Below are positions 37,801 through 64,000 of a stretch of 64,000 nucleotides of DNA, piece by piece. A model generated the notes under the pieces. It saw nothing but the letters and a program-made list of their open reading frames with translations, made no database searches and had not been told where the DNA came from. Source of the DNA: Christensenella timonensis (lineage in GTDB: Bacteria; Bacillota; Clostridia; Christensenellales; Christensenellaceae); the NCBI RefSeq assembly GCF_900087015.1, contig NZ_FLKP01000002.1, positions 992,001 through 1,056,000 on the forward strand, given 5' to 3'. Both the position numbers and the translations under genes were made by a program. The stretch's first letter is position 1. Each line of letters starts with the position of its first letter.

Positions 37801-39900
37801 ATGAAATACGAACATTTGTTCAGTCCGATTAAAGTAGGCGGTATGGTTCTTCCGAACAGGGTCGTACATGCCCCAACCGACATCAGCTCGGGGTCTTCCA
37901 CGGGCGAGGTGACGGAGCGGGTCTGTACATATTATGAAGAAGTCGCGAAGGGTGGGACCGGTTTTGTGATCGTCGGCGCTTCCTCGCCTGACCAGCAGAC
38001 GGGCCGGTGCTCTATTGTGGCGCTGTCTGTCGACCAGGATTATTTCATCCCGGGACTGGCGAGGCTCGCAGAAGCAATCCACCGGGAGGGCGCAAAGTGT
38101 GCCGTACAGATACAGCACCCCGGACGCCAGGCATGCCATCCGCGTAAATGCCAGATATCGTGCTCGGACATCATTACGAATATCCCGGGCAGTACGGGCC
38201 ATGAAATCATTTATGCAGAAGGCGAAGCAAAAGGTAAAATTGCGCGCGCGATGGAAGTGGAAGAGATTTATGACCTGATCGAGAAATTTGCAGAGGGTGC
38301 GTGGCGTGTCCAACAGGCCGGATTTGATGCGGTGGAACTGCATGCGGCCCACGGCTACATGATAGCACAGTTTATGAATCCTGTCACCAACAAACGCACC
38401 GACCGTTTTGGCGGCAGCTATGAAAACAGGATGCGCTTCATTCTGGAGATCATCCGCAATATCCAGAAGAAATGCGGCAAAGATTTTCCCATTCTTGTAC
38501 GATACTCGGCGGAAGAATGGATGCCAGGGCACAGGAAACTGGAAGAATCCCTGCAAATCGCAAAAACGTTGGAAGAGGCGGGCGTGGCGGCGCTTGATAT
38601 CAGCGCGGGAACATTTGAAGCGTCGGAATCCGTCATGGATCCGATGTATTACCAGGAGGGATGGAACACCTATTCAGCCACGGCGGTAAAAGGAGCGGTT
38701 AATATCCCGGTGATCACCAGCCATACGCTGCGCAATCCGGAATATTGCGACCAGATCATCGCAGAAGGAAAAACGGACATGGTAGGGCTCTCCCGCCAAA
38801 TGATCGCCGACCCTTACTGGGCGTTAAAGGCGATGAACGGGGAGGAAGAGGATATCAGGAAATGCATCAGCTGCCTGGTCGGCTGTTGGAAGGAATCGCT
38901 GATGGTCAAACGTGAGATGCGCTGTGCGATCAACCCGGCAATGGGCGACGAACGCTTCATGCATATGCAACCGGCTAAAACGCCTTTGAAGGTCGCTGTC
39001 GTGGGCGGCGGCGTCGCGGGGATGGAGGCGGCGCGCATCGCAACGCTGCGCGGACATCAATGCACAATCTTTGAAAAAGACAACGAACTTGGCGGCGTGC
39101 TGCGGCTGTGCTGTATGGTAGCGCCCAAGAACAAGATGAAATGGTATTTGCATTGGCTGCGCAGGCAGATCGAAAAGCTGGGCGTTACCGTGAAGCTGCG
39201 CACAGAAGCAAAGCCTGCGGAACTCAAAAAATATGACGCCGTATTGTGCGCTGCGGGAGCAGAGACGGTAGTCCCGGACATCCCGGGCGTGGATAAGGCC
39301 GTGAAATTCAACGATATTTTGGTGTGCTCCACCAAAAATTGTCCTTACTGGCCGGAGGATGGAAAGCCTGCGGCAGCAAAGGTCGGGCAGCGCGTGGTAC
39401 TGTGGGGCGACCATTACGCAGCGACGGATACGGCGGAGGCGCTGGGCCTGCGCGGCAAGGAAGTCACGGTCATTACTGAAAACAAAGAGCTGGGGGAAGA
39501 TATCGAGCCGATCCACAAGGAAGTGCTCAAGCGCCGGTTTGATATGAAAAATGGGCGCGGGCTGGAAGGCGTCCCCTACAAGCATAAGGTGAAGGTCTAT
39601 ACGGAAACGACGGTTTTGGAAGTGCGCGATAAAGAGGTTGTGTGCATCGGACGTGACCTTGAGAAATTCACCATTCCATGTGATTCGGTGGTTCTGTGCA
39701 AAACAAAGGAGAATACGAAACTGTTCGATACACTGCGCTCTTCTGGGCTAAAGGTGGTCAATATGGGAGACAGTAAGTTGGTACGCAACGTACGCGGCGC
39801 AATGACAGACGGCGCGAACGCCGGACTGGTGCTTGACGGGGACATGTTCATGAACCCGAACGGCGTACTGACGAACGGCCGTTCTACGGAAAACAGGTGA
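37801..39900 (+). CDS. NADH:flavin oxidoreductase with Fe-S cluster (Old Yellow Enzyme / 2,4-dienoyl-CoA reductase-like)
   Basis: This 699-residue flavoprotein joins an FMN-binding OYE barrel (about 1-350) to a C-terminal FAD/NAD(P) domain (about 395-690), like FadH, BaiCD and BaiH. The catalytic-region motif HAAHGYMIAQFM and QIQHPGRQ are present. The 4Fe-4S ligands are CISCLVGC plus a later Cys in REMRCAINP. The FAD motif is VVGGGVAGMEAA. Such enzymes reduce alpha,beta-unsaturated carbonyl compounds. Here it opens a sugar catabolic island, so the target may be an unsaturated keto-sugar; that is inference. ATG 37801 has a TAAGGAG site. A close paralogue begins at 63062. Confidence 0.93.
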   Translation: MKYEHLFSPIKVGGMVLPNRVVHAPTDISSGSSTGEVTERVCTYYEEVAKGGTGFVIVGASSPDQQTGRCSIVALSVDQDYFIPGLARLAEAIHREGAKCAVQIQHPGRQACHPRKCQISCSDIITNIPGSTGHEIIYAEGEAKGKIARAMEVEEIYDLIEKFAEGAWRVQQAGFDAVELHAAHGYMIAQFMNPVTNKRTDRFGGSYENRMRFILEIIRNIQKKCGKDFPILVRYSAEEWMPGHRKLEESLQIAKTLEEAGVAALDISAGTFEASESVMDPMYYQEGWNTYSATAVKGAVNIPVITSHTLRNPEYCDQIIAEGKTDMVGLSRQMIADPYWALKAMNGEEEDIRKCISCLVGCWKESLMVKREMRCAINPAMGDERFMHMQPAKTPLKVAVVGGGVAGMEAARIATLRGHQCTIFEKDNELGGVLRLCCMVAPKNKMKWYLHWLRRQIEKLGVTVKLRTEAKPAELKKYDAVLCAAGAETVVPDIPGVDKAVKFNDILVCSTKNCPYWPEDGKPAAAKVGQRVVLWGDHYAATDTAEALGLRGKEVTVITENKELGEDIEPIHKEVLKRRFDMKNGRGLEGVPYKHKVKVYTETTVLEVRDKEVVCIGRDLEKFTIPCDSVVLCKTKENTKLFDTLRSSGLKVVNMGDSKLVRNVRGAMTDGANAGLVLDGDMFMNPNGVLTNGRSTENR

Positions 39901-39905
39901 TGGCG

Positions 39906-40820
39906 ATGAAGCTGGGAATGAATACGGCGATCTTAGGGGCAAAACCGCTGGAAGAGGTGATCGATTTTGCCGCATCCATCGGGCTGAAGTCGATAGAAGC
40001 AGCATGCTGGCCGGTGGGCAAAGCAGACAGGCGGTATGCGGGGGTCACGCATATCGACGTGGATCAATTGACGCAGGAAAGGGCTGAGGGAATCCTTCAA
40101 TATGCCGGGGAAAAAGGGGTACAGATCGGTTCCCTCAGCTATTCCCCGAATCCGCTTGTGGATAACGAGGGACTGCGCCAAACCTATTTCGTACACATCA
40201 AAAAGGTGATCGCAGCAGCGGAAAAGCTGGGCGTACGGGCAATCGACACCTTCATCGGTAAAGACCATAAGCGGCCGATTGCTGAAAACATGGAGCTTTT
40301 CAAGCGGTACTGGCCGGATATCATCCGTTTTGCGGAAGACCATAACGTGATCGTGACCTTTGAGAACTGTCCGATGTATTTTACGCAGGATGAATGGCCG
40401 GGGGGAAAGAACCTCGCGGTATCGCCCAAAATTTGGCGGGAGATGTTCAGCCTTATCGACAGCGGGTACTTTGGTATCACTTTCGATCCATCTCATTTTG
40501 CGTGGCAGAGGATGGATTATATCAAACCCATCTACGAATTCCGTGAAAAGATCGTGAATGTACACCTGAAGGATACGAAATTTTACCAAGACAAGTACGA
40601 CGACGTAGGGATTTTTGCAGATCCACTGGAATACCATGCGCCTAAGCTGCCCGGACTGGGAGACATTGACTGGGGCAGGGTAGTATCTGCCTTGACGGAC
40701 ATCGGGTTTGTTGGCAGTGCGTTCATCGAGGTAGAAGACAGGGCGTTTGAAGGCAGCGAAAAAGATGTGCTGGATTCGCTGCGTATCTCAAAAAATTATA
40801 TGTCGCAATATATCGTTTGA
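39906..40820 (+). CDS. Sugar isomerase/epimerase, TIM barrel (island A)
   Basis: This metal-dependent TIM-barrel enzyme of the xylose-isomerase-like superfamily has 304 residues. Likely metal ligands are Glu in VTFENCP, Asp in FDPSHF, His in VHLKDTKF and Glu in FIEVEDRAF. Start ATG 39906 (MKLGMNTAIL) was chosen because the paralogue at 60761-61672 also begins with MKLG; two start codons lie just upstream and overlap the OYE stop. The two paralogues share long blocks such as RRYAGVTHIDV, EWPGGKNLA and LEYHAPKLPGLGDIDWG. The reaction could be isomerisation, epimerisation or a beta-elimination. Confidence 0.9.
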   Translation: MKLGMNTAILGAKPLEEVIDFAASIGLKSIEAACWPVGKADRRYAGVTHIDVDQLTQERAEGILQYAGEKGVQIGSLSYSPNPLVDNEGLRQTYFVHIKKVIAAAEKLGVRAIDTFIGKDHKRPIAENMELFKRYWPDIIRFAEDHNVIVTFENCPMYFTQDEWPGGKNLAVSPKIWREMFSLIDSGYFGITFDPSHFAWQRMDYIKPIYEFREKIVNVHLKDTKFYQDKYDDVGIFADPLEYHAPKLPGLGDIDWGRVVSALTDIGFVGSAFIEVEDRAFEGSEKDVLDSLRISKNYMSQYIV

Positions 40821-40830
40821 GGGACAGGCC

Positions 40831-41862
40831 ATGGATGAGAAGCGTTTTTTAGACATCGTAAACGGGTTTGATAAGGTACGGATCGCCGTGGTAGGGGATA
40901 TATTCCTCGACCGGATATTTTATATCGACAGAAAGCTTGACGAGCCGTCTGTGGAAACAGGGCTGACCGCGTACCAGGTCGCGCGGAGAAGCTGCGTTCC
41001 TGGCGCGGCGGGCGTGGTCACGAACAATTTGAGCGCGCTGCGCGTAGGTAAAATTTATGCGCTTGCGCTGACGGGCAACGACGGGGAAGGCTTTGACCTG
41101 AAAAAAGGACTGCGGGAAACAAACGTCGATACAGACTACATGGTGAGCGACGACAGTATCTTTACACCGACGTATACCAAAACATTTTTTGATTACGAAG
41201 ACCGGATGGAAGAGACGCACCGCATCGATATCAAGAACCGCAGGCAGACAAGCAGGAAAACGGAAGAACGCATCATCGCGAATTTAAAGGCGCTGGAAGA
41301 TAAGGTAGACGCGTTCGTGTGCCTAGAGCAAATTCCCAACGGCGCGTGCGGGGTTTTTACGCCGCGCGTAATTGAAACGCTGGCAGAGATCGGCAAAAAC
41401 GGGAAAGCGGGTGTGTTCGTGGATTCGCGTTTCCATATCGCGGATTTCCACGATGTGATCGTAAAATGCAACGACCTTGAAATATTGCGGTCGGCGGGTT
41501 TTAAGGTGCAGGAAGGCGAGGCGCATTGGCGCAGCGTGGAAGATGCAATGAAGCAGGCGGGTAAGGATACATCACGGCCCATGTTCATATCGTGCGGAGA
41601 GCTCGGCATGAAGGTATATACGGAAGGCGAGGTCAAAACGATCCGCGCATTCCGTGTGGAGGGGCCGGTCGATATCTGCGGCGCGGGAGATTCCGCGCTG
41701 ACGGGGATCGCCTGCGCATTGTGCGCAGGCGCAAGCCTCGAAGAAGCGGCGCTGACCGGAAACCTGGTGGCGTCCATCATTGTGGAGCAGATCGGCGTAA
41801 CCGGAACGGCTACAAGGGAAAAATTAATCAAAAGATTTCAAGAATATCAGGAGAGGCGGTAA
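40831..41862 (+). CDS. PfkB-family carbohydrate kinase, HldE-N/RfaE-like (island A)
   Basis: This 343-residue ribokinase-fold sugar kinase begins with RIAVVGDIFLDRIFY and a heptose-kinase-like ETGLTAYQV segment, where RfaE proteins have their EAPVPVV block. GAAGVVTNNLSAL matches the substrate-binding region. The anion hole and catalytic base are in CGAGDSALTG, Asp287. No nucleotidyltransferase domain is attached. It should phosphorylate the imported sugar or a derivative. A GmhA-like SIS isomerase and a HAD phosphatase further along the island make a heptose-like substrate worth considering. Confidence 0.88.
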   Translation: MDEKRFLDIVNGFDKVRIAVVGDIFLDRIFYIDRKLDEPSVETGLTAYQVARRSCVPGAAGVVTNNLSALRVGKIYALALTGNDGEGFDLKKGLRETNVDTDYMVSDDSIFTPTYTKTFFDYEDRMEETHRIDIKNRRQTSRKTEERIIANLKALEDKVDAFVCLEQIPNGACGVFTPRVIETLAEIGKNGKAGVFVDSRFHIADFHDVIVKCNDLEILRSAGFKVQEGEAHWRSVEDAMKQAGKDTSRPMFISCGELGMKVYTEGEVKTIRAFRVEGPVDICGAGDSALTGIACALCAGASLEEAALTGNLVASIIVEQIGVTGTATREKLIKRFQEYQERR

Positions 41863-41867: not shown

Positions 41868-42899
41868 ATGATTAGAATCGGAGTGATCGGCGGCGGAACG
41901 ATTGTCAGGAGAAGGCATCTGCCGGAAATTTTGGACAACCCGTATGCGCAGGTCGGCGCGGTATGCGATGTCGTCCGGGAGCGGGCGGAGGAGCTGGGCC
42001 GGGAATATGGGGCGACCCCATATACGGATTACAAAGAATTGATCAACGACCCGGCGATCGACGCGGTAATCGTGGCGGCGACGAATACAACGCACGCGCA
42101 AATGACCATCGAGGCATTGAAAGCGGGCAAGGACGTGATGTGTGAAAAACCGATGGCGGTTTCGCTGGGAGAGGCAAAGGAGATGATCCGTACCTCGGAG
42201 GAGACGGGGAAAATGCTGTTCATCGCGCAAAACCAGCGGCTTGCGCCCGCACATATCAAAGCAAAGGAACTGCTCGCGTCGGGAATGCTCGGCAAGGTGA
42301 TCACCTTCAAATCCACATTTGGACATCCGGGGTGTGAGCACTGGGCACAGGATAAGGGGAAAACGTGGTTTTTCAAAAAAGCGGTAAGCGTGTTCGGGTG
42401 CTTGGGAGACCTCGGTATCCACAAGATCGATATGGTGCGTTGGATGATGGACGACGAATTTACAGAAGTGTTTGCCAAAGTGGAAACGCTCAATAAGCGT
42501 AACGCGGACGGTGAGCTGATCGACGTGGAAGACAATGCCGTTATGGTGCTCAAAACACAGAAGGGAACTACAGGGACGATCACCGTGAGCTGGACATACG
42601 AGATGGAGGATTGCAGCACGGTCTTTTACTGCGAGAACGGCGTGATGACGATCTATGGCAACCCGGAATACCAGGTCGTGATCGAGCGCAATGACGGGAC
42701 GGCGGATTACTACAAGGTCGGCGAGATTCCCAATAACATCGTACAGGTGAAATCGGGGATTATCGATGAATTTGTATCCTGCATGGTGGAACAGAAGCCC
42801 GCGACGATCAGCGGACGGGACGGAATGGAACCGCTCAAGGTCGTGTTCAGCGCATACGAATCTTCAGAACAGAACAAAGCGGTAAAAATAACAGAATAG
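41868..42899 (+). CDS. Gfo/Idh/MocA family oxidoreductase (island A)
   Basis: This 343-residue NAD(P)-dependent dehydrogenase has the Rossmann motif IGVIGGGTI at residues 4-12 and the conserved MCEKPMAVS, whose Lys contributes to catalysis. The C-terminal half is the usual alpha/beta sheet domain, with LGDLGIHKIDMVRWM holding a catalytic His/Asp pair. Family members oxidise a hydroxyl of sugars, inositols or glycosides to a ketone. The ATG at 41868 follows GGAGAGGCGG, 5 bases after the kinase stop, so the genes are co-translated. A relative of 384 residues is at 58465. Confidence 0.9.
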   Translation: MIRIGVIGGGTIVRRRHLPEILDNPYAQVGAVCDVVRERAEELGREYGATPYTDYKELINDPAIDAVIVAATNTTHAQMTIEALKAGKDVMCEKPMAVSLGEAKEMIRTSEETGKMLFIAQNQRLAPAHIKAKELLASGMLGKVITFKSTFGHPGCEHWAQDKGKTWFFKKAVSVFGCLGDLGIHKIDMVRWMMDDEFTEVFAKVETLNKRNADGELIDVEDNAVMVLKTQKGTTGTITVSWTYEMEDCSTVFYCENGVMTIYGNPEYQVVIERNDGTADYYKVGEIPNNIVQVKSGIIDEFVSCMVEQKPATISGRDGMEPLKVVFSAYESSEQNKAVKITE

Positions 42900-42913: not shown

Positions 42914-43681
42914 ATGAATGAGAAAGTAAAGATCGATGAGGCAAGTTTCCAAAAAGTGAGCACAGAGGGGCTGGATTCGGCAAAAATCGCGAAGATGGTG
43001 GATCATTCGCTGCTGCATCCGGCGATGAGCGACGAAGAGTTTGAAGCGGAATGTGCAGTGGCCAAAAAGTATAACGTGGGGGCTGTGTGCGTAAAGCCGT
43101 ACCACACAAGGCGTGCGGCAGAGCTGATGGCGGGGACGGACATCCTGGTATCGGCGGTGGTGGCATTCCCGCACGGCAACAGCACGACGGAAATCAAGCT
43201 GGCCGAAGCGGAGCAGGTACTGCGGGACGGCGCGACAGAAGTGGACGTCGTCGTAAACATCGGAAAGGTGATCAGCGGGGATTGGGCGTATGTCGACAGT
43301 GAGATCCGCGAACTCAATGCGCTTGTCAAAAGTTATAACGCGATCCTGAAGGTGATCTTTGAAAACGACATGCTGACGAGCGACGAACAAAAGATCAAAC
43401 TGTGCCGGATCTGCAGCAAATATAAGGTGGGATTTGTCAAGACATCGACAGGCTACTGCTATAAAAAGGACGCGAACGGCAACTATTATTATGACGGTGC
43501 GACTCACCACGACTTGATGCTGATGCGTACATACTCCGACCCGGAAGTGAAAGTGAAAGCGGCAGGCGCGGTCAGCACATTAGAACCTGTGCTGCAGGCA
43601 TACGAGCTGGGCGCAACGCGTTTTGGGCTGAAGGGTGCGAAGAAGATCGTGGAAGACGCGATAGAGAAATTCGGCAAATAA
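42914..43681 (+). CDS. DeoC-like aldolase (deoxyribose-phosphate aldolase family, island A)
   Basis: This 255-residue class I aldolase of the DeoC/LacD family retains the catalytic residues: Asp in EVDVVVNIG, the Schiff-base Lys in GFVKTSTG, and a second Lys in VKVKAAGAVST. DeoC cleaves 2-deoxyribose 5-phosphate to acetaldehyde and glyceraldehyde 3-phosphate; the substrate here may be a related phosphorylated sugar. It follows the dehydrogenase by 14 bases and ends the enzyme part of the operon before the importer. The homologue at 62169 is clearly more distant than an allele would be. Confidence 0.9.
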   Translation: MNEKVKIDEASFQKVSTEGLDSAKIAKMVDHSLLHPAMSDEEFEAECAVAKKYNVGAVCVKPYHTRRAAELMAGTDILVSAVVAFPHGNSTTEIKLAEAEQVLRDGATEVDVVVNIGKVISGDWAYVDSEIRELNALVKSYNAILKVIFENDMLTSDEQKIKLCRICSKYKVGFVKTSTGYCYKKDANGNYYYDGATHHDLMLMRTYSDPEVKVKAAGAVSTLEPVLQAYELGATRFGLKGAKKIVEDAIEKFGK

Positions 43682-43788: not shown

Positions 43789-44940
43789 ATGAAAAAAGTG
43801 CTATGTATTTTGGTATGTGTTGTGATGGTAGTCGCAGTCATTGCGGGCTGCAGTAACAACAGCACGCCCGCCGAATCATCGGCGGCACAGGAATCCTCTG
43901 CGGCTCCGGCTGAATCGGAATCCGCAGCGGCAAGCGAGTCTGCGGCGGCTCCTGCCGGGGATAAGGAAGCTCCTGTTGTGGGAATCTCCACCGGTTCTTC
44001 CGGGACGACATTCCGCGACACGATGACACAGGCGTTAAAGGAAGTAGGCGACGAGTATAAGGCTTCCGGCCGCATCAAAGATTATAAGATCGTTGACAAT
44101 GCGACGAACGGCGACGCGACGGAACAGGCCAACATTATCCGCGACTTTATTTCGCAGGGCGTGGACATCATCCTTTTGAACCCAAACAGCAGCGATGCGC
44201 TCAACGGCGTGATCAAGGAAGCGCAGGACGCGGGCATCCTCGTTTTGAGCTATGACGGCACATGCACGGCGAGCGATGTCGTGACAGTGCAGGTAAACCC
44301 GTACGACTGGAACTATAAGCTGGTCAGCTTTGTTGCAGAACAAATGCCGGAAGGAACGGCAATCGACATCTATGGCCTTGACGGCCATCCTGGAAACATC
44401 CAACGCCTGCAGGCAAGGGACGATGTGTTGAAAGACTATCCGGGTATCGAAATTGTTTCCGAAACATCGGGCGGATGGGACCAGACGGTTGCAAAAGAAG
44501 CGGCGGCACAGATTATCGCCAGCGGTGTGACGCCGGACATCGTATTTACACAGGACAGCATGGCTTATGGCGTACTTTCGGCCTTCAAAGACCAAGGCAA
44601 GCTGCCCAAGATCATGGTCGGTGAACCGGGAACAGCGTATTTCAAGCTGTGGAAAGAACTGCGTGACTCCGGTGCGGATTTCAAATCGTGCGCAATGCCG
44701 AATCCTCCGGGAATCAGCGGTACAGGCTTCCGTGTAGCGGTCAACCTTTACGAGGGCAAAGAATTCAAGGACGATGCTCTGCAGATGGTCAACGATGCAA
44801 ACACGTTCTTCTATGAAGTGCAGAACTTCTATACGGACGAAAATTTCGATGAAGGATGGGCGCTTTTGGAGGATAAGCCGGACGATTATATGATGACGGA
44901 ATATATCTCGGAAGAAGACTTGCAGCAGTACTTTAAATAA
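43789..44940 (+). CDS. Sugar ABC transporter substrate-binding lipoprotein (island A)
   Basis: This 383-residue extracellular lipoprotein has the signal peptide MKKVLCILVCVV... ending in the lipobox VIAGC with Cys21, then a Ser/Ala/Glu-rich linker to about residue 62 and a Peripla_BP_4 domain (VVGISTGSSGTTFRDTM). It resembles the binding protein at 15877 in layout and size. AAGGAGG precedes its ATG. The ligand should be the substrate of the island A enzymes, but cannot be named. Confidence 0.92.
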   Translation: MKKVLCILVCVVMVVAVIAGCSNNSTPAESSAAQESSAAPAESESAAASESAAAPAGDKEAPVVGISTGSSGTTFRDTMTQALKEVGDEYKASGRIKDYKIVDNATNGDATEQANIIRDFISQGVDIILLNPNSSDALNGVIKEAQDAGILVLSYDGTCTASDVVTVQVNPYDWNYKLVSFVAEQMPEGTAIDIYGLDGHPGNIQRLQARDDVLKDYPGIEIVSETSGGWDQTVAKEAAAQIIASGVTPDIVFTQDSMAYGVLSAFKDQGKLPKIMVGEPGTAYFKLWKELRDSGADFKSCAMPNPPGISGTGFRVAVNLYEGKEFKDDALQMVNDANTFFYEVQNFYTDENFDEGWALLEDKPDDYMMTEYISEEDLQQYFK

Positions 44941-45176
44941 TTGCCACTAAGCAGGGCGTAAGCCCGAACGTACTATCAGCCTGGGCGCGCAAAAAACGCG
45001 TCCGGGCAATGGTACGGATTTTCTGCCCGAATTGGCGTCCTGGCCGGCGCCACGGGGAATGGGCGGGCGGAAACAAAGCATTCCAGGCCAGAGGGAAGGA
45101 AAAAACTTCCCCATATCAAATACGGATCAAAATCAGTTTGTACCACGGACAAAGGTGAATAAGGCTGGTGAAAAAT
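44941..45176 (+). promoter_or_regulatory. Structured intercistronic region between binding-protein and ATPase genes
   Basis: These 236 non-coding bases fold into several GC-rich stems by eye: GGGC/GCCC around GTAA (44954-44965), GGGCGCG/CGCGTCC around an A-rich loop (44983-45003), and GGCG/CGCC near 45034-45051. CGGGCA (45003-45008) can also pair with TGCCCG (45024-45029), so alternative folds exist. No T-run follows any of them. It is the longest of three such regions at the same place in the three importers. Confidence 0.45.
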
Positions 45177-46691
45177 ATGACTGTTTTGGAAGTGAAAAAT
45201 ATACAAAAGCGCTTTGAGGGCGTCGTTGCACTCGACCATGTGGATTTCAAGTGCGAGGCGGGCAGGATCACGGGGCTTTTGGGGGCAAACGGCAGCGGAA
45301 AAAGTACGCTTTCCAAGATCATCACGGGCGTATACCGTGCGGACGGGGGAGAAATTTTTTACTGCGGAAAAAAGGCGGCGTTTTCCAATCCGGCGGAATC
45401 CAAAAAAAACGGGATATCGATGGTGTTCCAAAACTTGAGTTTGGTGGAGGACCTGACCGTATGGCAGAACATCGCTCTTGGATGCGAAAAGAAAAAAGGC
45501 CTTTTCCTGGATAACGCTTCGGCCAAGGAAAAAGCGAAAGCACTCCTTGACGAGCTGTCGCCGGGCATGGATATCGACAAATATGTATACCAGCTCGGGC
45601 CGAGCGAAATGCAGATCGTCGAGATCGCAAAGGCGCTGATTGAGGAACCCAAACTCCTGATCCTTGACGAACCGACCGCATCTTTGGAGATCGAACAGGT
45701 GAAACGGCTTTTTGCATACATGCGTAAGTTGGTCAAAAAGGATATCGCACTGATCTTTACCTCCCACCGTATGAAGGAGGTCATGGAGATGTGCGATACC
45801 GTTTCGGTGTTTAAAAACGGGCGGAACGTCGGAAGCCTGGATTTTGAACGGGAGGAACGGGATTCGGATGCGGTCGTCAGGATGATCACAGGCAAGAAGA
45901 AGGAAACGCAGGTATGCGAAAAATGTCCGCGTATCCTGCCGGAAGATAAAATACTGGAGATCAGCGATTTAAACTATACAAACCGTTTAAAACATATCTC
46001 CTTTAACCTAAAGCGGGGCGAGATCCTGGGAATCGGCGGGTTGTCAGGGCAGGGACAGGAAGAGTTGATGCTCGCATTGGCGGGGAACTATCCCAAGCCC
46101 AATGTGAAGGAGATGCGGATGGACGGCGAAGAGCTGAAGATGAAGAGTCCGGCGGACGCGATCTCTAAAGGGATATTCCTTGTGCCCGGGGACAGGAACG
46201 CAGAAGGCCTGTTCCTGCAGCATTCCGTCTATGACAATTTTGTCTATCCCAAGCTGGCGCAGAAAAAACACCCGTTGGTTATCCCGGAGAAAAAGTACAG
46301 GGAAGAAGGCAAGGAGACGGTCAAGAAACTGTCGGTCGTGGCCAAGGACTTAAATACCAGGGTAGCGACCCTGTCGGGCGGCAATGCGCAAAAGGTCGTC
46401 ATTGGAAAATGGCTGACCTTTGATATTAAAGTGCTGCTTCTTTCCGACCCTGCGAAGGGCGTGGATATCGGCGCGAAAGAAGATATGTACCGGTTTATCC
46501 AGGAAATGACGCAAAAAGACGGCGCCAGCGTTGTGCTTTATGCGAGCGACGCGGAGGAGCTGATCAAATACTGTGACCGCGTGCTGATCATGTTTGAGGG
46601 GCAGTTTGTCGCGGAACTCTGCGGCGACGATATCAGGGAAGACAAGATATACGCCGCGACGATGAGCGGAGTCAAATCCGCCGAAGAATAA
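45177..46691 (+). CDS. Sugar ABC transporter ATP-binding protein with degenerate NBD2 (island A)
   Basis: This RbsA-type tandem ATPase has 504 residues. NBD1 is canonical: GANGSGKST, GPSEMQIVEIAKAL and LILDEPTAS. NBD2 has GLSGQGQEE and LSGGNAQK but a Walker B of LLLSDPAKGVD, in which the positions of the Asp-Glu pair read Ser-Asp. Hydrolysis at that site is likely impaired. ATG 45177 is preferred over the in-frame GTG at 45168 because the domain begins with TVLEVKNIQKRF directly after it. The first permease follows 19 bases downstream. Confidence 0.9.
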   Translation: MTVLEVKNIQKRFEGVVALDHVDFKCEAGRITGLLGANGSGKSTLSKIITGVYRADGGEIFYCGKKAAFSNPAESKKNGISMVFQNLSLVEDLTVWQNIALGCEKKKGLFLDNASAKEKAKALLDELSPGMDIDKYVYQLGPSEMQIVEIAKALIEEPKLLILDEPTASLEIEQVKRLFAYMRKLVKKDIALIFTSHRMKEVMEMCDTVSVFKNGRNVGSLDFEREERDSDAVVRMITGKKKETQVCEKCPRILPEDKILEISDLNYTNRLKHISFNLKRGEILGIGGLSGQGQEELMLALAGNYPKPNVKEMRMDGEELKMKSPADAISKGIFLVPGDRNAEGLFLQHSVYDNFVYPKLAQKKHPLVIPEKKYREEGKETVKKLSVVAKDLNTRVATLSGGNAQKVVIGKWLTFDIKVLLLSDPAKGVDIGAKEDMYRFIQEMTQKDGASVVLYASDAEELIKYCDRVLIMFEGQFVAELCGDDIREDKIYAATMSGVKSAEE

Positions 46692-46710: not shown

Positions 46711-47724
46711 ATGAAAGACAAAATCAGTTTGAAAAAAATAACGTCGATTAAAAATTTCCCGAGCATTATGATCCTGGTCGTGATGATTATCATTACAGCC
46801 TGCCTGCAGAACAATTTTTTTACGCTGCAGGGGCTGGTCAGCACATCGAACGCTTTTTTCCCGCTGATCCTAATGACAATCGGACAGTCGGTCATCATGA
46901 TTTCGGGTGCGGTGGATTTATCGAACGGGGCGGCACTATCGCTGATGACGTGCGTACTGGCGGCGACGATGAAGGCCGGCGACCCGTCGACGAGCATAAC
47001 GGCGATTGTGCTGGTGGTTATTACAGCAGCGGTGTGCGGCCTGCTCAATGGCTTTGCGATCGGTTTTATGCGCGTACCGCCGGTTATCGTGACCTTTGCA
47101 ACGTCTTATATCTTTATGGGGGCGGGATTGTTTATCCTGCCGCGTCCGGGCGGCGAGTGCGTCAACTGGGTAGAGGGATTCTATAATTTTTCCATGGTCA
47201 ATGGGATGCCGGAATGGATACAGAACCTGGGCAACGTCATACCGCCCTCGCTTTGGATATTGATCGCAGTGATCGTGATTTGGATGCTCATCAGCAGGAC
47301 GCGCTTTGGGCGCTACCTGTATGCGACGGGCGGAAACGAGGAAAGCGCCTATGCAAGCGGGATTAATACGGCGCGTACGCGCATCCTTGCGTGCATGTTT
47401 AATTCGTTCTGCATCATGCTGACGGCACTGTTCTTTGTGGCGCAGAATCGTTCGGGAGACTATACGCTGGGTGATGCGTTCACCTTAAAGTCCATTGCCG
47501 CAGCCGTAATCGGCGGTGTCTCCATGGCAGGCGGACGGGGCGATATCGCAAGCGCGGTGATCGGGGCGCTGATCTTTAGCTTCGTCAACAAGATTATCTT
47601 CTTTGCAAACCTGCCCACCGTGTACCAGACACTGGTGAGCGGCCTGATTGTGATCGTTGCACTGATGGTATCGTTCGTGTATACGTCCCTGAACCAGAAA
47701 GCAAAGCTGAAGGAGGCGGAATAA
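46711..47724 (+). CDS. Sugar ABC transporter permease 1 (island A)
   Basis: This 337-residue polytopic membrane protein of the BPD_transp_2 family has the landmark SGAVDLSNGAA and the late loop GGVSMAGGRGDIA. The basic N-terminus (MKDKISLKKITSIK) is cytoplasmic. It is separated from the second permease by a single base and likely pairs with it as a heterodimer, as in the importer near 19 kb. Confidence 0.9.
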   Translation: MKDKISLKKITSIKNFPSIMILVVMIIITACLQNNFFTLQGLVSTSNAFFPLILMTIGQSVIMISGAVDLSNGAALSLMTCVLAATMKAGDPSTSITAIVLVVITAAVCGLLNGFAIGFMRVPPVIVTFATSYIFMGAGLFILPRPGGECVNWVEGFYNFSMVNGMPEWIQNLGNVIPPSLWILIAVIVIWMLISRTRFGRYLYATGGNEESAYASGINTARTRILACMFNSFCIMLTALFFVAQNRSGDYTLGDAFTLKSIAAAVIGGVSMAGGRGDIASAVIGALIFSFVNKIIFFANLPTVYQTLVSGLIVIVALMVSFVYTSLNQKAKLKEAE

Positions 47725-49583: not shown

Positions 49584-49584
49584 A

Positions 49585-50565: not shown

Positions 50566-50570
50566 GAATT

Positions 50571-51467: not shown

Positions 51468-51468
51468 C

Positions 51469-58464: not shown

Positions 58465-59619
58465 TTACAGGGAAAGCCATTTCTCCTGCTTTGCGGATTC
58501 AACGATCGCTTCGCACAGCTGCAGCTCGCGCAGGCCTGCTTCAAACGTCGGAAATTCCGGTGTTGCGCCTGTCTTATAACCCTCCGCGCGGATGTAGTTA
58601 TAGAACTTGGTAGCAAATTGCTTGATCGTATCCGGGAAACCCTCGTTGTGGCCGCCGGGATAGGAGACCAGCTGCGCCGCTTCACGGTGCATGAGCGAAG
58701 GATCTTTCATCAGTACATGGTTCGCTTCGTCGCGTTCGCCGATCCACATTTCGTTGGGACGCTCCGTGTTGATCGCGATGGATTTTTTGCTGCCGTAGAT
58801 CTCGAACCAAATGCGGTTTTTGCGTCCCGCGGCAACCTGGTTGACCGTCATGGAGCCGTGCGCGCCGTTATCGAATTTTAAGAGTACGGACGCGTAATCT
58901 TCCGTATTGATCGGAACGTCTGCATAATCATCGGGCGTGAGCACCTTGCCGGAATAAGTCTCGACCGGCTTTAAAGGCTTTTTGCGGGTGGGGTAGAAGG
59001 TCGCGAAATCCGCGCATACCTTGTCGATCTTAATGCCTGTCATGAATTCAACGGAATCCAGCCAGTGCGAACCGATGTCTGCTACCGCGCGGGAATCGCC
59101 GCTGAATTTTGGCTCCAAACGCCAGCTGTAGTCCGTTTCCTTAAACAGCCAGTCCTGCTGGTAAGAACCGTTGACCGCAAAGATTTTCCCCAGTTCCCCG
59201 TTCTGGATCATCGCACGCGCTTCGTGGATGACGGGGTAAAAACGGATGTTGAAGTGCACCGCGTTTGCAAGGCCCTTTTCCTTGGCAAGGGCGATCAGCT
59301 CTTTGGCCTGCGCGCTGTTCATCGTGAGCGGCTTTTCGCATACGACATGCTTGCCGGCCAGAAGCGCTTCTTTCGCCATCTGGAAATGGAAGCTGTTGGG
59401 TGAGCAGATATGTACGACGTCGATCTCCGGATCGGCCAGCAGTTGCTGATAGTTCCCGTAGCTTTTATCGATAGAAAGCTGCTCCGCTTTTGCTTTTGCC
59501 GTTGCGTCGTCGATATCGGCGAGGGCGACAACATCCACAAAGCCTAACCTGCGCAGCGCTTCAATATGTGTAGGCCCGATAAAGCCTGTTCCAATGACGC
59601 CAGTTCTGATTTTTTCCAT
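58465..59619 (-). CDS. Gfo/Idh/MocA family oxidoreductase (island B)
   Basis: This 384-residue NAD(P)-dependent dehydrogenase has the Rossmann motif VIGTGFIGPTH near residues 7-17 and VCEKPLTMNS, with the catalytic-region Lys of EKP. DIGSHWLDSVEFMTG in the C-terminal domain supplies the active-site His/Asp. Start at 59619 (MEKIRTG) has AAAGGA at proper distance; an ATG three codons upstream is too close to it. It is the third gene of the minus-strand island B operon, 22 bases after the kinase. It is only moderately similar to the 343-residue enzyme at 41868, so a different sugar or sugar position is likely. Confidence 0.9.
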   Translation of the reverse strand: MEKIRTGVIGTGFIGPTHIEALRRLGFVDVVALADIDDATAKAKAEQLSIDKSYGNYQQLLADPEIDVVHICSPNSFHFQMAKEALLAGKHVVCEKPLTMNSAQAKELIALAKEKGLANAVHFNIRFYPVIHEARAMIQNGELGKIFAVNGSYQQDWLFKETDYSWRLEPKFSGDSRAVADIGSHWLDSVEFMTGIKIDKVCADFATFYPTRKKPLKPVETYSGKVLTPDDYADVPINTEDYASVLLKFDNGAHGSMTVNQVAAGRKNRIWFEIYGSKKSIAINTERPNEMWIGERDEANHVLMKDPSLMHREAAQLVSYPGGHNEGFPDTIKQFATKFYNYIRAEGYKTGATPEFPTFEAGLRELQLCEAIVESAKQEKWLSL

Positions 59620-59641
59620 GAATATCATTCCTTTCTAAATT

Positions 59642-60751
59642 TCATTCCCAAGTATTAAGAAAATTTTTGAGCTCTTCCGTGTCGGGGCTTTTGGCGTTGC
59701 GGACATAATAGCCGGACGCGCCTACGCCGCACAGAAGGCATTGCTGATACGGATAACCGTTCATCCATCCAAGCACAAAGCCTGAATTGAAGGTATCTCC
59801 CGCACCCGTCGTGAGCACGGGATGCTCACAGTACGGCCCGGCAACCTCGTAGTAGGCGCCTCCTGCATAACAGCAGGCACGGTCTACGGGATGGATGACA
59901 AGGCAATCGATCCTGATGTCCTTTACTAAACTTTCGCATAACTCCTTGAGCGGATAAGCCTGATAGTCGCTGATCTGCCCGCCGTATAATTCCGCGATCT
60001 CGCATGCTTCCTTTTTATTGAGGCCGAGCGTAACAGGGAAACCGGCTTTTGAAAAAGCATTGATCAGCTCTATGGCTTCCTTGATGTCCTGCGCGCTGCG
60101 TTTTTCCGGATCCGCAAGGTCAAAGAACAAACGCTTATCCTGCGGGCGGCTTTTCATCCGCGGCAGCACATCGGCGAGAAAACTCCGCCAGATATCGCTC
60201 ATGTGGGGAAGCATGGTCCAGTTCTCCATACCGATGAGGTCGCTTTCGTCCACAATTTTTACAAATGCGTCGAGGCCCACCTTCTCCATGATCCGTTCCC
60301 AGGTGACATTTTTAAAATGCTCGATCTTGGAAACGATGATCTTGCCGTCATGGAATTCGTAGGCGTCCGTATGTCCGGGCTCTGTAAGACCGATCATCAC
60401 GGAGCCTGCCGCCAGTTCGTCAAAAACGGGATCGTGCCCGTTTTCGCCCACACAGCCAATATAGGTAAGGGAGATGTTATGCTTTTTCAGGGCGTTGGCA
60501 AAAATGGGGCCGTTGCCGCCGAGCTTTTTCTGGACAGCGACGATTTCTACATTGGTAGAAAGGCCGCAGCCATTTTTCAAACGCTCGGAGTAGGAGAGGA
60601 TCGTATCGATCCGGGAAAAGTTTTCAGGATCGATACGCTTATCCACCACATGCACGATCTCGTCTACGAAACCGTCAAACCCGATGAGTGCCTTGAGCGG
60701 CGCAACGCCGCCCGCCAGTTTTTGTGAGAGTTCTTTCTTCGCTTCGTTCAT
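59642..60751 (-). CDS. PfkB-family carbohydrate kinase (island B)
   Basis: This 369-residue ribokinase-fold kinase begins with ALIGFDGFVDEIVHVVD, a start seen in a subgroup of PfkB kinases with unknown sugars. KKLGGNGPIFANALKKH binds substrate in the family, and the catalytic base is Asp319 in TTGAGDTFNSGF. It is not closely related to the RfaE-like kinase of island A, although it occupies the same place in the gene set. It lies 9 bases after the isomerase gene and 22 before the dehydrogenase gene. Confidence 0.9.
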   Translation of the reverse strand: MNEAKKELSQKLAGGVAPLKALIGFDGFVDEIVHVVDKRIDPENFSRIDTILSYSERLKNGCGLSTNVEIVAVQKKLGGNGPIFANALKKHNISLTYIGCVGENGHDPVFDELAAGSVMIGLTEPGHTDAYEFHDGKIIVSKIEHFKNVTWERIMEKVGLDAFVKIVDESDLIGMENWTMLPHMSDIWRSFLADVLPRMKSRPQDKRLFFDLADPEKRSAQDIKEAIELINAFSKAGFPVTLGLNKKEACEIAELYGGQISDYQAYPLKELCESLVKDIRIDCLVIHPVDRACCYAGGAYYEVAGPYCEHPVLTTGAGDTFNSGFVLGWMNGYPYQQCLLCGVGASGYYVRNAKSPDTEELKNFLNTWE

Positions 60752-60760: not shown

Positions 60761-61672
60761 CTAGATAAAATTCCGCATATATCTCTGGGAAAGCTCGATA
60801 GAATGAAGCTTGTCCTCAAGCGTATCTTCAAACGCACGGTCTTCCACTTCGATCACAGCGGGGCCTTTGTAGTGGATATCGTAGAGCGCGGAAATGGTCT
60901 TGCCCCAGTCGATATCGCCTAAGCCCGGCAGTTTGGGCGCATGATATTCAAGAGGCGTTGCCATCATGCCGACTTTGTTGTAACGGTCCCTATAGAATTT
61001 TACGTCCTTGATGTGGAAATGGAACATCTTGTCCGCAAAATCGTAAATAGGCTGGATGTAGTCCATCTGCGGCCATACCAAATGGGACGGGTCATAGTTG
61101 AGCCCGAAATATTTACTGTCGATGATGGAGAACATATCCGTCCAGATAGCGGGGGTGGAGGCTAAGTTTTTGCCGCCCGGCCATTCGTCCATGGAATAGA
61201 ACATCGCGCAGTTCTCAATGCCGACCTTGACGTCATTGTCCTCTGCGAATTTGATGATGTCGGGCCAGATCTCTTTAAAAGCTTTCATGTTTTCGGAGAT
61301 CGGCAACGACGGGTCTTTGCCGATGAAGGTATTCATATTGTGAAGGCCCAAGATCCGTGCGCCTTCGATACATTTTTTGATATGGTCGACGGATGTTTTG
61401 CGTACGGCCGGATCGGGATCGAGCGGGTTGGGGTAATAACCGATGGCGGAAATCTCCACATTTTTTTCTTTCAGGTAATTATTGATGTATTCGGCTTTTG
61501 CTTGGTCGAGGGAAGCGACGTCGATGTGCGTCACACCTGCGTAACGGCGTTCCGCCTTACCGACAGGCCAGGCAGCCACTTCCACACACTCCATGCCGAT
61601 CTTGCTTGCATAGTCGATCAGCTGCTCAAAAGAGTATTCCGGTAAAATAGCACTTACAAATCCAAGTTTCAT
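60761..61672 (-). CDS. Sugar isomerase/epimerase, TIM barrel (island B)
   Basis: This 303-residue TIM-barrel enzyme is paralogous to the one at 39906. Metal ligands are expected at Glu of GIENCAM, Asp of YDPSHL, His of FHIKDVKF and Glu of VIEVEDRAF. The start at 61672 (MKLGFVSAIL) has a perfect AGGAGG site; the frame stays open far upstream only because the repeat array there has no stops in this frame. It is the first gene of a three-gene operon transcribed from a promoter embedded in the 9-bp repeat array. Confidence 0.9.
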   Translation of the reverse strand: MKLGFVSAILPEYSFEQLIDYASKIGMECVEVAAWPVGKAERRYAGVTHIDVASLDQAKAEYINNYLKEKNVEISAIGYYPNPLDPDPAVRKTSVDHIKKCIEGARILGLHNMNTFIGKDPSLPISENMKAFKEIWPDIIKFAEDNDVKVGIENCAMFYSMDEWPGGKNLASTPAIWTDMFSIIDSKYFGLNYDPSHLVWPQMDYIQPIYDFADKMFHFHIKDVKFYRDRYNKVGMMATPLEYHAPKLPGLGDIDWGKTISALYDIHYKGPAVIEVEDRAFEDTLEDKLHSIELSQRYMRNFI

Positions 61673-62084: not shown

Positions 62085-62100
62085 GCGGGACGATTCCCGC
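62085..62100 (+). promoter_or_regulatory. Hairpin in the deoC leader
   Basis: GCGGGA (62085-62090) and TCCCGC (62095-62100) form a perfect 6-bp stem with loop CGAT, 68 bases before the deoC ATG. It is not followed by a T-run. Just upstream, AAGCGGCATG (62070-62079) also occurs in the opposite leader. Confidence 0.5.
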
Positions 62101-62168
62101 GGCTGGATCAGGGCTCACTATAAGGATTCATATATTGATAAAAATTTATATTATCAGGAGGAAAGATC

Positions 62169-62900
62169 ATGAAACCTACGAAGAAAGCAAGCGAGATGTC
62201 GGTAAAGGAATTGGCTGCATACATTGACCAGTCTGTTTTGAAGCCGGAGTTTACACAGGACGATATCCGTAAGTATATCCAGGAAGGGATCGACTTTGGC
62301 TGCATCACAGTATGCATCAACCCGGCGTCCCTCGATATCGCAGCGGAGCTGACAAAGGGAACGGATACGAAGATCTGCGTGGTATGCGACTTCCCGTTCG
62401 GTCTTTCGACAACTGCTTCCAAAGTGATGCAGGCGGAAGAATATTGTAAGAGGGGCGACGTATTCGAGCTGGATATCGTTGCGAACTATGGATGGCTGCG
62501 CAGCGGCATGTACAAAGAAGTGGAAGAGGATATCAAGGCAGTCGTAGACGTATGCCATAAATACGGTACGGCAGTCAAGGTGATCATTGAAACAGATTCC
62601 CTGACGCTGGACGAGATCAAGGAAGGTACGAAAGCGGCCGTACGCGCTGGCGCAGACTTCATCAAGAGCTCGACGGGTTTCTATACGGGCGGCAAGAGCG
62701 AAGGCGCAACGGTGGAGGTTGTGCAGGCGATGATGGATGCCGGCGAAGGCAAGATCAAAGTCAAAGGTTCCGGCGGGATCCGCACGAGAGAACATTTCCT
62801 AAAGCTGATCGACATGGGCATCGACCGCATGGGCGTTGGCTATCGCTCCACACCGGATGTGCTTGGCGTAACGATCGAAGAAGTCAGGAAGCAGAAATAA
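62169..62900 (+). CDS. deoC: Deoxyribose-phosphate aldolase family protein (DeoC, island B)
   Basis: This 243-residue class I aldolase has the catalytic Asp in FELDIVANYG, the Schiff-base Lys in FIKSSTGF and the second Lys in IKVKGSGGIRT, all as in DeoC. Expected chemistry is retro-aldol cleavage of a 2-deoxypentose 5-phosphate or related sugar phosphate. ATG 62169 has AGGAGG 6 bases upstream. It is the first gene of the plus-strand island B transcript and precedes an OYE-type flavoprotein, as if the island A order had been split in two. A homologue is at 42914. The deoC symbol reflects the family, not a proven substrate. Confidence 0.9.
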   Translation: MKPTKKASEMSVKELAAYIDQSVLKPEFTQDDIRKYIQEGIDFGCITVCINPASLDIAAELTKGTDTKICVVCDFPFGLSTTASKVMQAEEYCKRGDVFELDIVANYGWLRSGMYKEVEEDIKAVVDVCHKYGTAVKVIIETDSLTLDEIKEGTKAAVRAGADFIKSSTGFYTGGKSEGATVEVVQAMMDAGEGKIKVKGSGGIRTREHFLKLIDMGIDRMGVGYRSTPDVLGVTIEEVRKQK

Positions 62901-62915
62901 CTTTTTCATAATTGC

Positions 62916-62950
62916 TATGCTGCATGCGCCTCCAAGGCGCATGCAGCATA
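62916..62950 (+). promoter_or_regulatory. Strong hairpin between deoC and the OYE gene
   Basis: A perfect 15-bp stem (62916-62930 with 62936-62950) has the loop TCCAA and arms containing GCTGCATGCGCC. AAAAACC rather than a T-run follows, so it may stabilise the deoC mRNA 3' end or partly terminate, letting the flavoprotein gene be read at a lower level. Confidence 0.6.
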
Positions 62951-63061
62951 AAAACCTCGAGGTTTGGCCCCGTCTAACCAACTTTCAGTAAATTATTTAA
63001 CGTTTTTTTAAGAAGTAAAATTTAATCACAGTCTCATTATTTTTAAACGGAGGTAAAAAAG

Positions 63062-64000
63062 ATGGCTTTTGAACACATTTTTCAACCGATCAAAATCAAG
63101 AACATGGTCGTACCGAACAGAACGGTGCATGTTCCGACGGATATTAGTTCGGCAGATCCGGATGGCGGCATCAATGACCGTGTAATCCGGTATCATGAAG
63201 AGATCGCAAAGGGCGGTACGGGCCTCATCATCGTGGGCGCTTCCACACCGAACAGGCACACGGGACGTCCGACGGTAACCTGTATTTCTGCTGACGAAGA
63301 TTATTATATCCCAGGTCTTCACATGCTTGCAAAAGCGATGCAGAAGCACGGCGCAAAATGTGCGGTACAGATCCAGCATCCGGGCCGCCAGGCGGCATAC
63401 CCGAGAAAAGGGCAGATTTCCTGCTCGGATATGGTATCCTACCTGCCGGGCAGCGCTGGCCACGAGGTCGTTTATGCAGGCGGACAGGCACACGGCAAGA
63501 TCGCCCGCGAGATGACGGTAGAGGAAGTATACGATCTGGCAGAACGCTTTGCAGAAGCTGCGTGGCGCGTAAAAGAAGCCGGCTTTGACTGCGTGGAGCT
63601 GCATGCTGCACACGGTTACATGATCGCACAGTTCATGAGCCCGGCCACAAACACAAGAAACGACCGCTTTGGCGGAAAATATGAAAACCGCATGCGTTTC
63701 ATCCTGGAGATCATCGACAGGATCAAACAAAAGTGTGGCGAAGACTTCCCGATTCTGGTAAGATATTCCGGTGAAGAATGGAAGCACGACGGCAGGAAGC
63801 TTGACGAATCCATCAAGATCGCAAAGACGCTGGAAGAAGCGGGCGTTGCGGCGCTTGATATCTCGGCCGGCATCTTCGACCTTGCAGAAACGGTTATGGA
63901 TCCGATGTATTATACGGAAGGCTGGAACACGTATTCCGCAGAAGCGATCAAAAAGGCTGTCAATATCCCGGTCATCACCAGCCACACACTGCGCAGCCCC
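63062..64000 (+). CDS. NADH:flavin oxidoreductase, OYE/2,4-dienoyl-CoA reductase-like, 3'-truncated (island B)
   Basis: The first 313 residues of a flavoprotein paralogous to that at 37801 are present; the gene continues beyond the window. The visible part is the FMN-binding OYE barrel. It shares with the island A enzyme the blocks PNR.VH.PTDISS, AKCAVQIQHPGRQA, ELHAAHGYMIAQFM, EEAGVAALDISAG and IPVITSHTLR. The Fe-S and FAD/NAD(P) domains would follow outside the window. ATG 63062 has a GGAGGT site. It lies 161 bases after deoC, with a strong hairpin in between. Confidence 0.92.
   Translation, partial: MAFEHIFQPIKIKNMVVPNRTVHVPTDISSADPDGGINDRVIRYHEEIAKGGTGLIIVGASTPNRHTGRPTVTCISADEDYYIPGLHMLAKAMQKHGAKCAVQIQHPGRQAAYPRKGQISCSDMVSYLPGSAGHEVVYAGGQAHGKIAREMTVEEVYDLAERFAEAAWRVKEAGFDCVELHAAHGYMIAQFMSPATNTRNDRFGGKYENRMRFILEIIDRIKQKCGEDFPILVRYSGEEWKHDGRKLDESIKIAKTLEEAGVAALDISAGIFDLAETVMDPMYYTEGWNTYSAEAIKKAVNIPVITSHTLRSP

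Follow-up and report, generated by a model that had tools for sequence, protein, structure and literature searches.

A candidate catabolic route through deoxy-sugar phosphates in two gene islands of Christensenella timonensis that join an OYE flavoprotein to a DeoC aldolase

The catabolism of 2-deoxyribose proceeds via deoK-deoC, and flavoproteins of the OYE family are better known for acting on xenobiotic and lipid enones. Among the described systems closest to the locus discussed here is the 3-keto pathway for levoglucosan and O-glycosides (LgdA-LgdB1-LgdB2-LgdC; AtOGE/AtHYD), in which, according to the available parts of PMC7676230 and PMC10628242, a Gfo/Idh dehydrogenase and AP_endonuc_2 TIM-barrel enzymes are encoded beside a sugar ABC importer, with a HAD-type gene nearby. 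The same two enzyme families recur in the C-glycoside clusters (dgp/dfg; CGD alpha/beta), and the available text of PMC8355322 describes the canonical inositol set. The word “flavin” is absent from the main text of the latter, and the main texts of PMC10066097, for the 3-keto pathway, and PMC8563793, for the C-glycosides, contain neither “flavin” nor “aldolase”. Within the accessible portions of the open PMC literature, no account was found that joins an OYE or other flavin oxidoreductase, DeoC and the Gfo/TIM pair in one pathway.

Two islands with the same five enzyme families

The window, i.e., the whole stretch of 64,000 nucleotides that was analysed, comes from apparent Christensenella timonensis, a human gut bacterium, and contains two islands, A and B, which together with their OYEs occupy C2:1029798-1057173. 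An earlier note on this DNA had proposed that a module of five families (OYE, TIM barrel, PfkB kinase, Gfo/Idh and DeoC) is present twice in the neighbourhood; this was confirmed by a profile scan in which all ten genes scored above their Pfam cut-offs, the scan of the island B OYE covering the 313 residues inside the window out of 704 aa for the whole gene.

Island A is a single tight operon on the plus strand, in the order OYE-TIM-PfkB-Gfo-DeoC and with gaps of at most 14 bases. Its OYE/2,4-dienoyl-CoA-reductase-like flavoprotein (37801..39900; FMN, 4Fe-4S and FAD/NAD domains; PDB relatives 6qkg and 1ps9) combines PF00724 (231 bits), Fe-S cysteines and a Pyr_redox domain, as in enoate reductases of this kind. 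It is followed by an AP_endonuc_2 TIM-barrel enzyme resembling AtHYD and SCO6571 (39906..40820; PF01261), a PfkB kinase resembling HldE domain I by its profile matches (40831..41862), a Gfo/Idh/MocA dehydrogenase assigned by Pfam (41868..42899) and a DeoC aldolase (42914..43681). An RpiR-type sugar-sensing regulator, named from its translation, is encoded divergently (36477..37352, minus strand).

Downstream on the plus strand lies a sugar ABC importer, comprising a substrate-binding protein (SBP) of the CUT2/ribose type (43789..44940), an ATPase (45171..46691) and two permeases (46711..47724 and 47726..48712). Thereafter come a HAD-like phosphatase (48747..49583; weak NCBIfam match, 19.5 bits), a GSU2086-family protein (49582..50565; NF052581, 395 bits, cut-off 250), an aldose-1-epimerase-like protein, again named from its translation (50571..51467), and a GmhA-like SIS isomerase identified by profile matches (51463..52047). 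The phosphatase and the isomerase belong to a recurrent SIS-HAD-GSU2086-PfkB cassette in which relatives of the island A PfkB are found, i.e., this kinase has partners of its own. At loci L091-L100 (56-69% to the island A GSU2086 protein), PFK_A and HAD matches occur in ten of ten and SIS matches in nine of ten; at L102-L119 (39-46%), the three are found in part only, and L101, a 2.1-kb sequence with 61% over a fragment, has no PFK_A, HAD or SIS match. The comparison of these cassettes pointed to no substrate.

Island B is arranged divergently. The TIM-barrel enzyme (60761..61672; PF01261, 124 bits), a Khk-type kinase of the PfkB superfamily (59642..60751; PF25270, 195 bits; PF00294, 43 bits) and the Gfo/Idh dehydrogenase (58465..59628) are on the minus strand, while the DeoC aldolase (62169..62900) and the Pfam-assigned OYE (63062..64000) are on the plus strand, with the latter extending about 1.2 kb beyond the window edge (L001:62-2176, 704 aa).

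The proposal that the OYE and TIM-barrel pairs are close, with the kinases and dehydrogenases far more divergent, was borne out: identities between A and B are 65% (OYE) and 57% (TIM), compared with 28% over 265 aa for Gfo/Idh, and the kinases have no BLAST match at E 1e-3. An amendment concerns DeoC, which at 30% over 217 aa has diverged as much as Gfo/Idh. The common core is also larger than stated before, as it includes the SBP (51%; the B copy is at L001:3150-4343), the ATPase (57%) and both permeases (46% and 51%). Two versions of the module are present, for which “duplicated” is hardly the right term. A recent local duplication is judged unlikely because each of the seven genes shared with an Atribacterota locus (L028), namely those for OYE, TIM, DeoC, SBP, ATPase and both permeases, has in L028 a counterpart that resembles the A or the B copy more than these two resemble each other. 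In an OYE tree, A and B are not joined, the separating branch being weak (81/42).

Conservation of the module across phyla

Outside the two islands, the genome has one more OYE that belongs to this subfamily (copy C; 54-57%) and adjoins another TIM barrel and a Gfo/Idh gene. The HxxHxY motif and the four Fe-S cysteines of such OYEs are conserved in the alignment of all three copies; an AlphaFold model of the OYE (pLDDT 57 from 8 sequences) was set aside. This OYE type is rare: when 391 genomes from the class are compared, two reach E <= 1e-150, and C. timonensis accounts for one of the two.

Neighbours were sought within 9 kb in 28 rows (27 distinct loci) of this OYE type outside the window; many of the loci share a common ancestry, and the counts therefore describe non-independent events. 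The tightest association is that with DeoC: wherever more than 700 bases precede the OYE, the next gene upstream encodes DeoC (19 of 19 loci), compared with none of 20 in the C-type OYE clade. A TIM-barrel gene lies within 9 kb in 25 rows; two of the other three stop at a contig edge, leaving L188 as a true exception. All five functions occur within 9 kb in ten loci (L031, L036, L177-L181, L183-L185), and a relative of the GntR/UTRA regulator of island B is found in 10 of the 28 rows. A check of co-occurrence that could have refuted the module did not do so, and the functions do make up a conserved unit. The exact set with a PfkB kinase is confined to the window, PfkB being found in none of the 28 rows; elsewhere the slot is taken by unrelated sugar kinases, such as a hexokinase (L031) or a ROK protein (L178), both assigned by Pfam. 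Gfo is absent within 9 kb from 11 of 28 rows, five of which have at least 8.6 kb downstream (L028, L049, L175, L176, L188), and a kinase of the types sought is absent from 14.

Conservation of the neighbours extends to Atribacterota and Planctomycetota, which live mostly outside the gut. Ten genomes without a detectable OYE of this subfamily contain DeoC together with the TIM-barrel enzyme, which indicates that a related pathway can dispense with this OYE.

Candidate chemistry and its alternatives

Both window DeoCs exceed the TIGR00126 cut-off of 117.3 (178.7 bits in A, 189.2 in B) and carry the catalytic motif. The catalytic residues Asp102, Lys167 and Lys201 (E. coli numbering) are retained in 34 of 34 aligned module DeoCs; these represent 33 distinct loci and include the two window copies, whereas the DeoCs of L181 and L067 stand outside the alignment. 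The phosphate-loop Ser-Ser pair visible in 8qps, a feature of canonical 2-deoxyribose-5-phosphate aldolases, is present in none of the 34, nor in the two other DeoCs of the genome; because of this, judged from sequence, the substrate may be other than 2-deoxyribose-5-phosphate.

For the TIM-barrel enzyme of island A (AF2 model, pLDDT 91.7), the 2-hydroxy-3-keto-glucal hydratase AtHYD tops the Foldseek E-values among structures of known activity, with 19% identity and TM-scores of 0.80/0.72 for this predicted model, and the sequence profile finds AtHYD as well; UlaE and other isomerases fit the model with similar TM-scores, which counts against this assignment. Among 80 TIM loci, a beta subunit of C-glycoside deglycosidase (CGD) is a confirmed neighbour in three (L018, L020, L073) and, by clustering only, possibly in a fourth (L022). 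A 3-keto-disaccharide hydrolase (PF06439) follows the Planctomycete module in four of seven testable loci (L034, L049, L075, L138), by similarity only at L056 and at L137, where the sequence ends before the domain, and is absent at L139; this neighbour is weakened as evidence because the six Planctomycete genomes tested hold 13-45 PF06439 matches each. Together, these links uphold the suggestion that the Gfo/Idh and TIM-barrel pair is tied to 3-keto-glycoside chemistry.

We give a probability of roughly 0.4 to the reading that either island encodes a single anaerobic keto-sugar route by which a monosaccharide or a small glycoside is broken down, the OYE reducing a sugar enone and DeoC splitting the phosphate of a deoxy sugar. 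The substrate would enter by the ABC importer of the respective island, and Gfo/Idh would oxidise a hydroxyl to a ketone. The TIM-barrel enzyme, as a relative of keto-sugar (de)hydratases, could then take a proton next to the ketone and remove or re-add the beta oxygen. The product would be a conjugated sugar enone, and the OYE would reduce its C=C bond to CH2 with NAD(P)H-derived electrons. Gfo/Idh could re-reduce the ketone, the deoxy sugar would be phosphorylated by a sugar kinase, which is PfkB in the window and hexokinase or ROK in other loci, and DeoC would split the product into a two-carbon aldehyde and a sugar-phosphate fragment. The analysis demonstrates the families, the cross-phylum operon conservation, the restriction of the DeoC link to one OYE type, the retention of catalytic residues and the fold similarity of the TIM-barrel enzyme, while the sequence of the reactions and the roles of the enone and the deoxy sugar as substrates of OYE and DeoC, respectively, are inferred. 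Plain 3-keto-glucose chemistry alone gives no CH2 beside an aldehyde, as DeoC needs; a C4-keto route, or a substrate that is already 2-deoxy, would give it. If the sugar is a hexopyranose, the combination found that would yield a 2-deoxyaldose has the ketone at C4 and loses the hydroxyl of C2. The position of DeoC in island A, as the last gene and not preceding the OYE, counts against this pathway, as do the loci that lack Gfo, a kinase or the TIM-barrel enzyme and the genomes with DeoC and TIM but without such an OYE.

If true, this would provide a natural sugar substrate class for an OYE subfamily, define a catabolic pathway in C. timonensis that is shared with uncultured Atribacterota and Planctomycetota, and extend the use of DeoC beyond deoxyribose. 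The available text of PMC6819567 describes the Christensenellaceae as heritable and as showing an inverse relation to body-mass index. A bolder form, which we regard as unlikely, would have a dedicated, anaerobic and radical-free route from ordinary to 2-deoxy sugars (ketone, dehydration, flavin ene-reduction, DeoC), conserved as a reductive-deoxygenation branch of fermentation with its own OYE subfamily and spread between phyla.

Somewhat doubtful, yet favoured by several of the findings above, is the known 3-keto-sugar salvage, run by the TIM-barrel enzyme, Gfo and the kinase, in which a 2-hydroxy-3-keto-glycal would be hydrated to a 3-keto sugar, reduced to an aldose and phosphorylated. The OYE would act as a safety valve or electron sink by converting the reactive enone to a 1,5-anhydro sugar, and 2-deoxy glycosides that join this route would be the business of DeoC. 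The similarity to AtHYD, the ROK and hexokinase partners, the neighbouring C-glycoside and 3-keto-disaccharide enzymes and the modules without an OYE agree with it, and the enone is a known intermediate of levoglucosan and O-glycoside cleavage (available parts of PMC7676230 and PMC10628242). However, it leaves the tightest pair, OYE and DeoC, unexplained, and the CGD beta model PF19906 has no match in this genome, although the same search is silent in every control genome. A variant with the OYE as dehydrogenase on 1,5-anhydro sugars was rejected, as it accounts for the TIM-barrel enzyme, Gfo and kinase but not for DeoC; moreover, NAD-linked desaturation is uphill.

Quite improbable is a cyclitol (inositol-like) pathway, in which Gfo would be an inositol dehydrogenase and the TIM-barrel enzyme an inosose dehydratase, the OYE acting on a cyclitol enone and PfkB and DeoC replacing IolC and IolJ. 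The family make-up parallels iolG/iolE/iolC, IolG is the best NCBIfam match of the island A Gfo, and IolE structures are among the structural matches of the TIM-barrel enzyme; however, scores in A and B fall far below the cut-offs (IolG 169.5 and 126 bits vs. 355, IolE 31 and 36 vs. 290, IolC 31 and 23 vs. 300), no IolD- or IolB-like gene was recognised in the translations of the islands, and hexokinase or ROK partners would better suit an aldose. The Anaerostipes inositol pathway was likewise rejected on the Iol scores and the main text of PMC8355322. That the OYE merely stands beside sugar genes and acts on an unrelated enoate, a bile acid, bilirubin or another aromatic or xenobiotic enone is very improbable. 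The identity of the nearest named models of the island A OYE speaks for it, but their scores reach about half the cut-offs (mycofactocin OYE 408 vs. 793, BaiCD 406 vs. 825, long bilirubin reductase 382 vs. 750), and the neighbours are kept across phyla.

Comparison with known systems

The islands share the Gfo/Idh and TIM-barrel families, the importer and the HAD-type gene with the levoglucosan and O-glycoside operons, which, in the available parts of the same two papers, have no OYE or aldolase. They further differ in the added DeoC and kinase and in their Gfo proteins, that of island B matching the levoglucosan dehydrogenase (LgdA) model NF052479 over its full length with 202 bits and that of island A with 124, against a cut-off of 650. 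The C-glycoside clusters are similar in the two families and the CGD beta neighbours, and dissimilar in the missing match here, where the controls are silent too. As in the myo-inositol pathway (iolGEDBCJ), Gfo, TIM barrel, PfkB and an aldolase occur together, but the Iol cut-offs are missed, the aldolase is of the DeoC class and the OYE is extra.

The SPU metabolosome loci of Atribacteria, Gemmatimonadetes and Marinimicrobia include, in Atribacteria, a DeoC-type aldolase with a proposed cleavage of a sugar phosphate to an aldehyde (PMC4207490, available text). A microcompartment link was nevertheless rejected: BMC shell genes were found in five of ten genomes tested, and those of this genome (C2:1544468-1545608 and C2:1751278) are separated from the islands by at least about 490 kb, with none in the locus. 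Relative to 2-deoxyribose catabolism, the islands have a kinase family that varies across loci, three extra enzymes and a DeoC without the Ser-Ser pair, but they share with deoK-deoC the combination of a sugar kinase with DeoC.

Gene content and relatedness of the two islands

The C. timonensis genome comprises 2,650,850 bases on two contigs, the window corresponding to C2:992001-1056000. Island A (37.8-43.7 kb) is a single tight operon encoding an OYE/2,4-dienoyl-CoA-reductase-like flavoprotein (OYE), an AP_endonuc_2 TIM-barrel enzyme (TIM), a PfkB kinase, a Gfo/Idh dehydrogenase (Gfo) and DeoC, which is the last gene and not upstream of OYE; downstream come the genes of a CUT2-type ABC importer and of HAD-like, GSU2086-family, aldose-epimerase-like and SIS proteins. 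In island B (58.5-64 kb and beyond), TIM, kinase and Gfo lie on the minus strand and DeoC and OYE on the plus strand; past the window are encoded a GntR/UTRA regulator, a second ABC importer, a SIS protein, an RbsD/FucU protein (127 bits to the L-fucose mutarotase model, cut-off 141) and an iron-type alcohol-dehydrogenase-like protein. Pfam confirms all ten assignments of the earlier note, which saw the same five families in both islands, the island B OYE being scanned to the window edge only.

By reading, a nucleoside-hydrolase-like gene (window 35115-36065) lies upstream of the island A region with the RpiR regulator, and several more sugar ABC importer genes with an SBP occupy the first third (669-20667). 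A URO-D-family gene (57134-58372) adjoins island B; likewise, a URO-D protein is encoded upstream of the DeoC-OYE pair of locus L188, with no BLAST match between the two among the matches listed.

Between the islands, identity is 65% for OYE, 57% for TIM and 46-57% for the importer, versus 28% for Gfo, 30% for DeoC and no match for the kinases. The earlier note had described OYE and TIM as close pairs and the kinases and dehydrogenases as more divergent; DeoC is remote as well. The island A kinase resembles that of another cassette, SIS-HAD-GSU2086-PfkB, whose four genes recur in the class (window 48747-52047; L091-L100). An Atribacterota locus (L028) carries seven genes common to both islands, and each is closer to its counterpart in one of the islands than the two island copies are to each other; in the OYE tree, A and B group with Atribacterota rows (support 99/100), B joining these rather than A at a support of only 81/42. 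Thus, two copies do share one neighbourhood, but judged by sequence comparison they look like long-separated copies, a recent local duplication being unlikely; perhaps they moved between phyla.

Conservation of the module

In OYE-seeded searches (E <= 1e-150, seed genome counted where part of the set), the subfamily was found in 2/391 genomes of the own class, 5/329 of the own phylum and 5/298 of the class to which a Phycisphaerales genome belongs (two or three candidates scored per genome in each), and in 18/25 of the class of the L028 Atribacteria genome. A TIM-seeded search gave at least 539 relatives in the scanned stretches, of which the best 80 were kept; among these 80, Gfo/Idh matches accompany 51, DeoC 19 and OYE 11, nine of the island subfamily.

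Neighbourhoods within 9 kb of OYE were tabulated for 28 rows resembling the island copies (A/B type) outside the window (L013 and L143 apparently represent the same contig; L089, which repeats L028, is excluded) and 20 rows of the clade including the genome's third OYE (C type, with L002); related by descent, the rows are not independent counts. A/B-type rows contain TIM in 25/28, Gfo in 17/28 and DeoC in 20/28, DeoC being the next gene upstream in all 19 with >700 bases upstream; the twentieth (L036) is cut at a contig end, and L188 has DeoC without TIM within 9 kb. The predicted co-occurrence of the five families elsewhere holds at the level of function, with all five together in ten rows (L031, L036, L177-L181, L183-L185), but not for PfkB itself, which is absent from all 28, ROK (10/28) or hexokinase (4/28, one weak) occurring instead. 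C-type rows, all with >700 bases upstream, contain DeoC in 0/20, TIM in 2/20, Gfo in 6/20 and an importer ATPase in 11/20. The 20 C-type rows form a single clade in a 52-row tree (support 100/100), and all 23 DeoC-labelled rows fall outside that clade (the 23 comprise both window copies, with L028 and L089 as separate rows).

DeoC-Gfo-TIM-importer modules without OYE occur at L009, L016 and L017, with a C-type OYE elsewhere in these genomes. Furthermore, of 24 genomes tested, MAGs of unstated completeness, 15 lack an OYE at the E <= 1e-100 threshold, and in ten of the 15 a DeoC lies near TIM (L005, L006, L024, L027, L048, L050, L052, L058, L067, L078). Such modules make it less likely that the OYE step is obligatory in every module.

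Other OYE and DeoC loci in the genome

The third OYE (L002:6287-12038; G000:C2:1649287-1655038) lies beside another TIM barrel, a Gfo/Idh, a PIG-L deacetylase and an N-acetyltransferase; at L192, a C-type OYE adjoins an amidohydrolase. These neighbours, together with the importer ATPase frequency, suggest an amide-bearing sugar as C-type substrate. A fourth, shorter OYE (L003:8090-13585; L206:2801-9614) is in an apparent operon, by reading, with a DeoR regulator, PfkB, class II aldolase and FGGY kinase, near aldehyde-dehydrogenase-like genes and ~14 kb from microcompartment shell genes. Another of the four DeoC genes in all (L209:3277-6777) again adjoins a divergent TIM-barrel gene and a kinase-like protein.

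Clues to the chemistry and a proposed pathway

For the predicted TIM structure (pLDDT 91.7), the first match by E-value is SCO6571 (no function given), followed by the 2-hydroxy-3-keto-glucal hydratase AtHYD, which outranks ketose 3-epimerases, several isomerases being similar by TM-score. C-glycoside deglycosidase beta subunits are near TIM in three of the best 80 loci, exactly the three scanned, and in a fourth (L022) by clustering only. In Planctomycete rows, genes with the 3-keto-disaccharide hydrolase domain PF06439 follow the module at L034, L049, L075 and L138 (confirmed) and, by similarity only, at L056 and L137 (cut before the domain); none was found after the module at L139, and L031, L036 and L140 end too soon to show one. 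With 13-45 PF06439 matches in each of six genomes tested, some are expected nearby by chance. BT_2158-like glycoside 3-dehydrogenases at L034 and L049 score below the cut-off (438 and 433 versus 750 bits). The module DeoC retains its three catalytic residues in 34/34 aligned sequences; the phosphate-loop Ser-Ser pair is present in none of these, nor in the genome's two other DeoCs.

The best explanation is a keto-sugar pathway, in which Gfo would oxidise, TIM dehydrate, OYE reduce the enone, the kinase phosphorylate and DeoC cleave. By position logic, a C4 ketone on a hexopyranose would allow the C2 hydroxyl to leave, OYE would then yield a 2-deoxy sugar, and kinase and DeoC would give acetaldehyde and erythrose-4-phosphate. 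However, TIM and neighbour evidence favour a C3 ketone, leading to 2-hydroxy-3-keto-glycals, which OYE could reduce but which give no DeoC substrate unless the sugar is already 2-deoxy. Owing to this conflict, the pathway is proposed tentatively, at a probability near 0.4.

In search listings of the open PMC literature, no description was found of a module joining these five functions with an OYE subfamily of its own; the single enzyme families of the module are already known.
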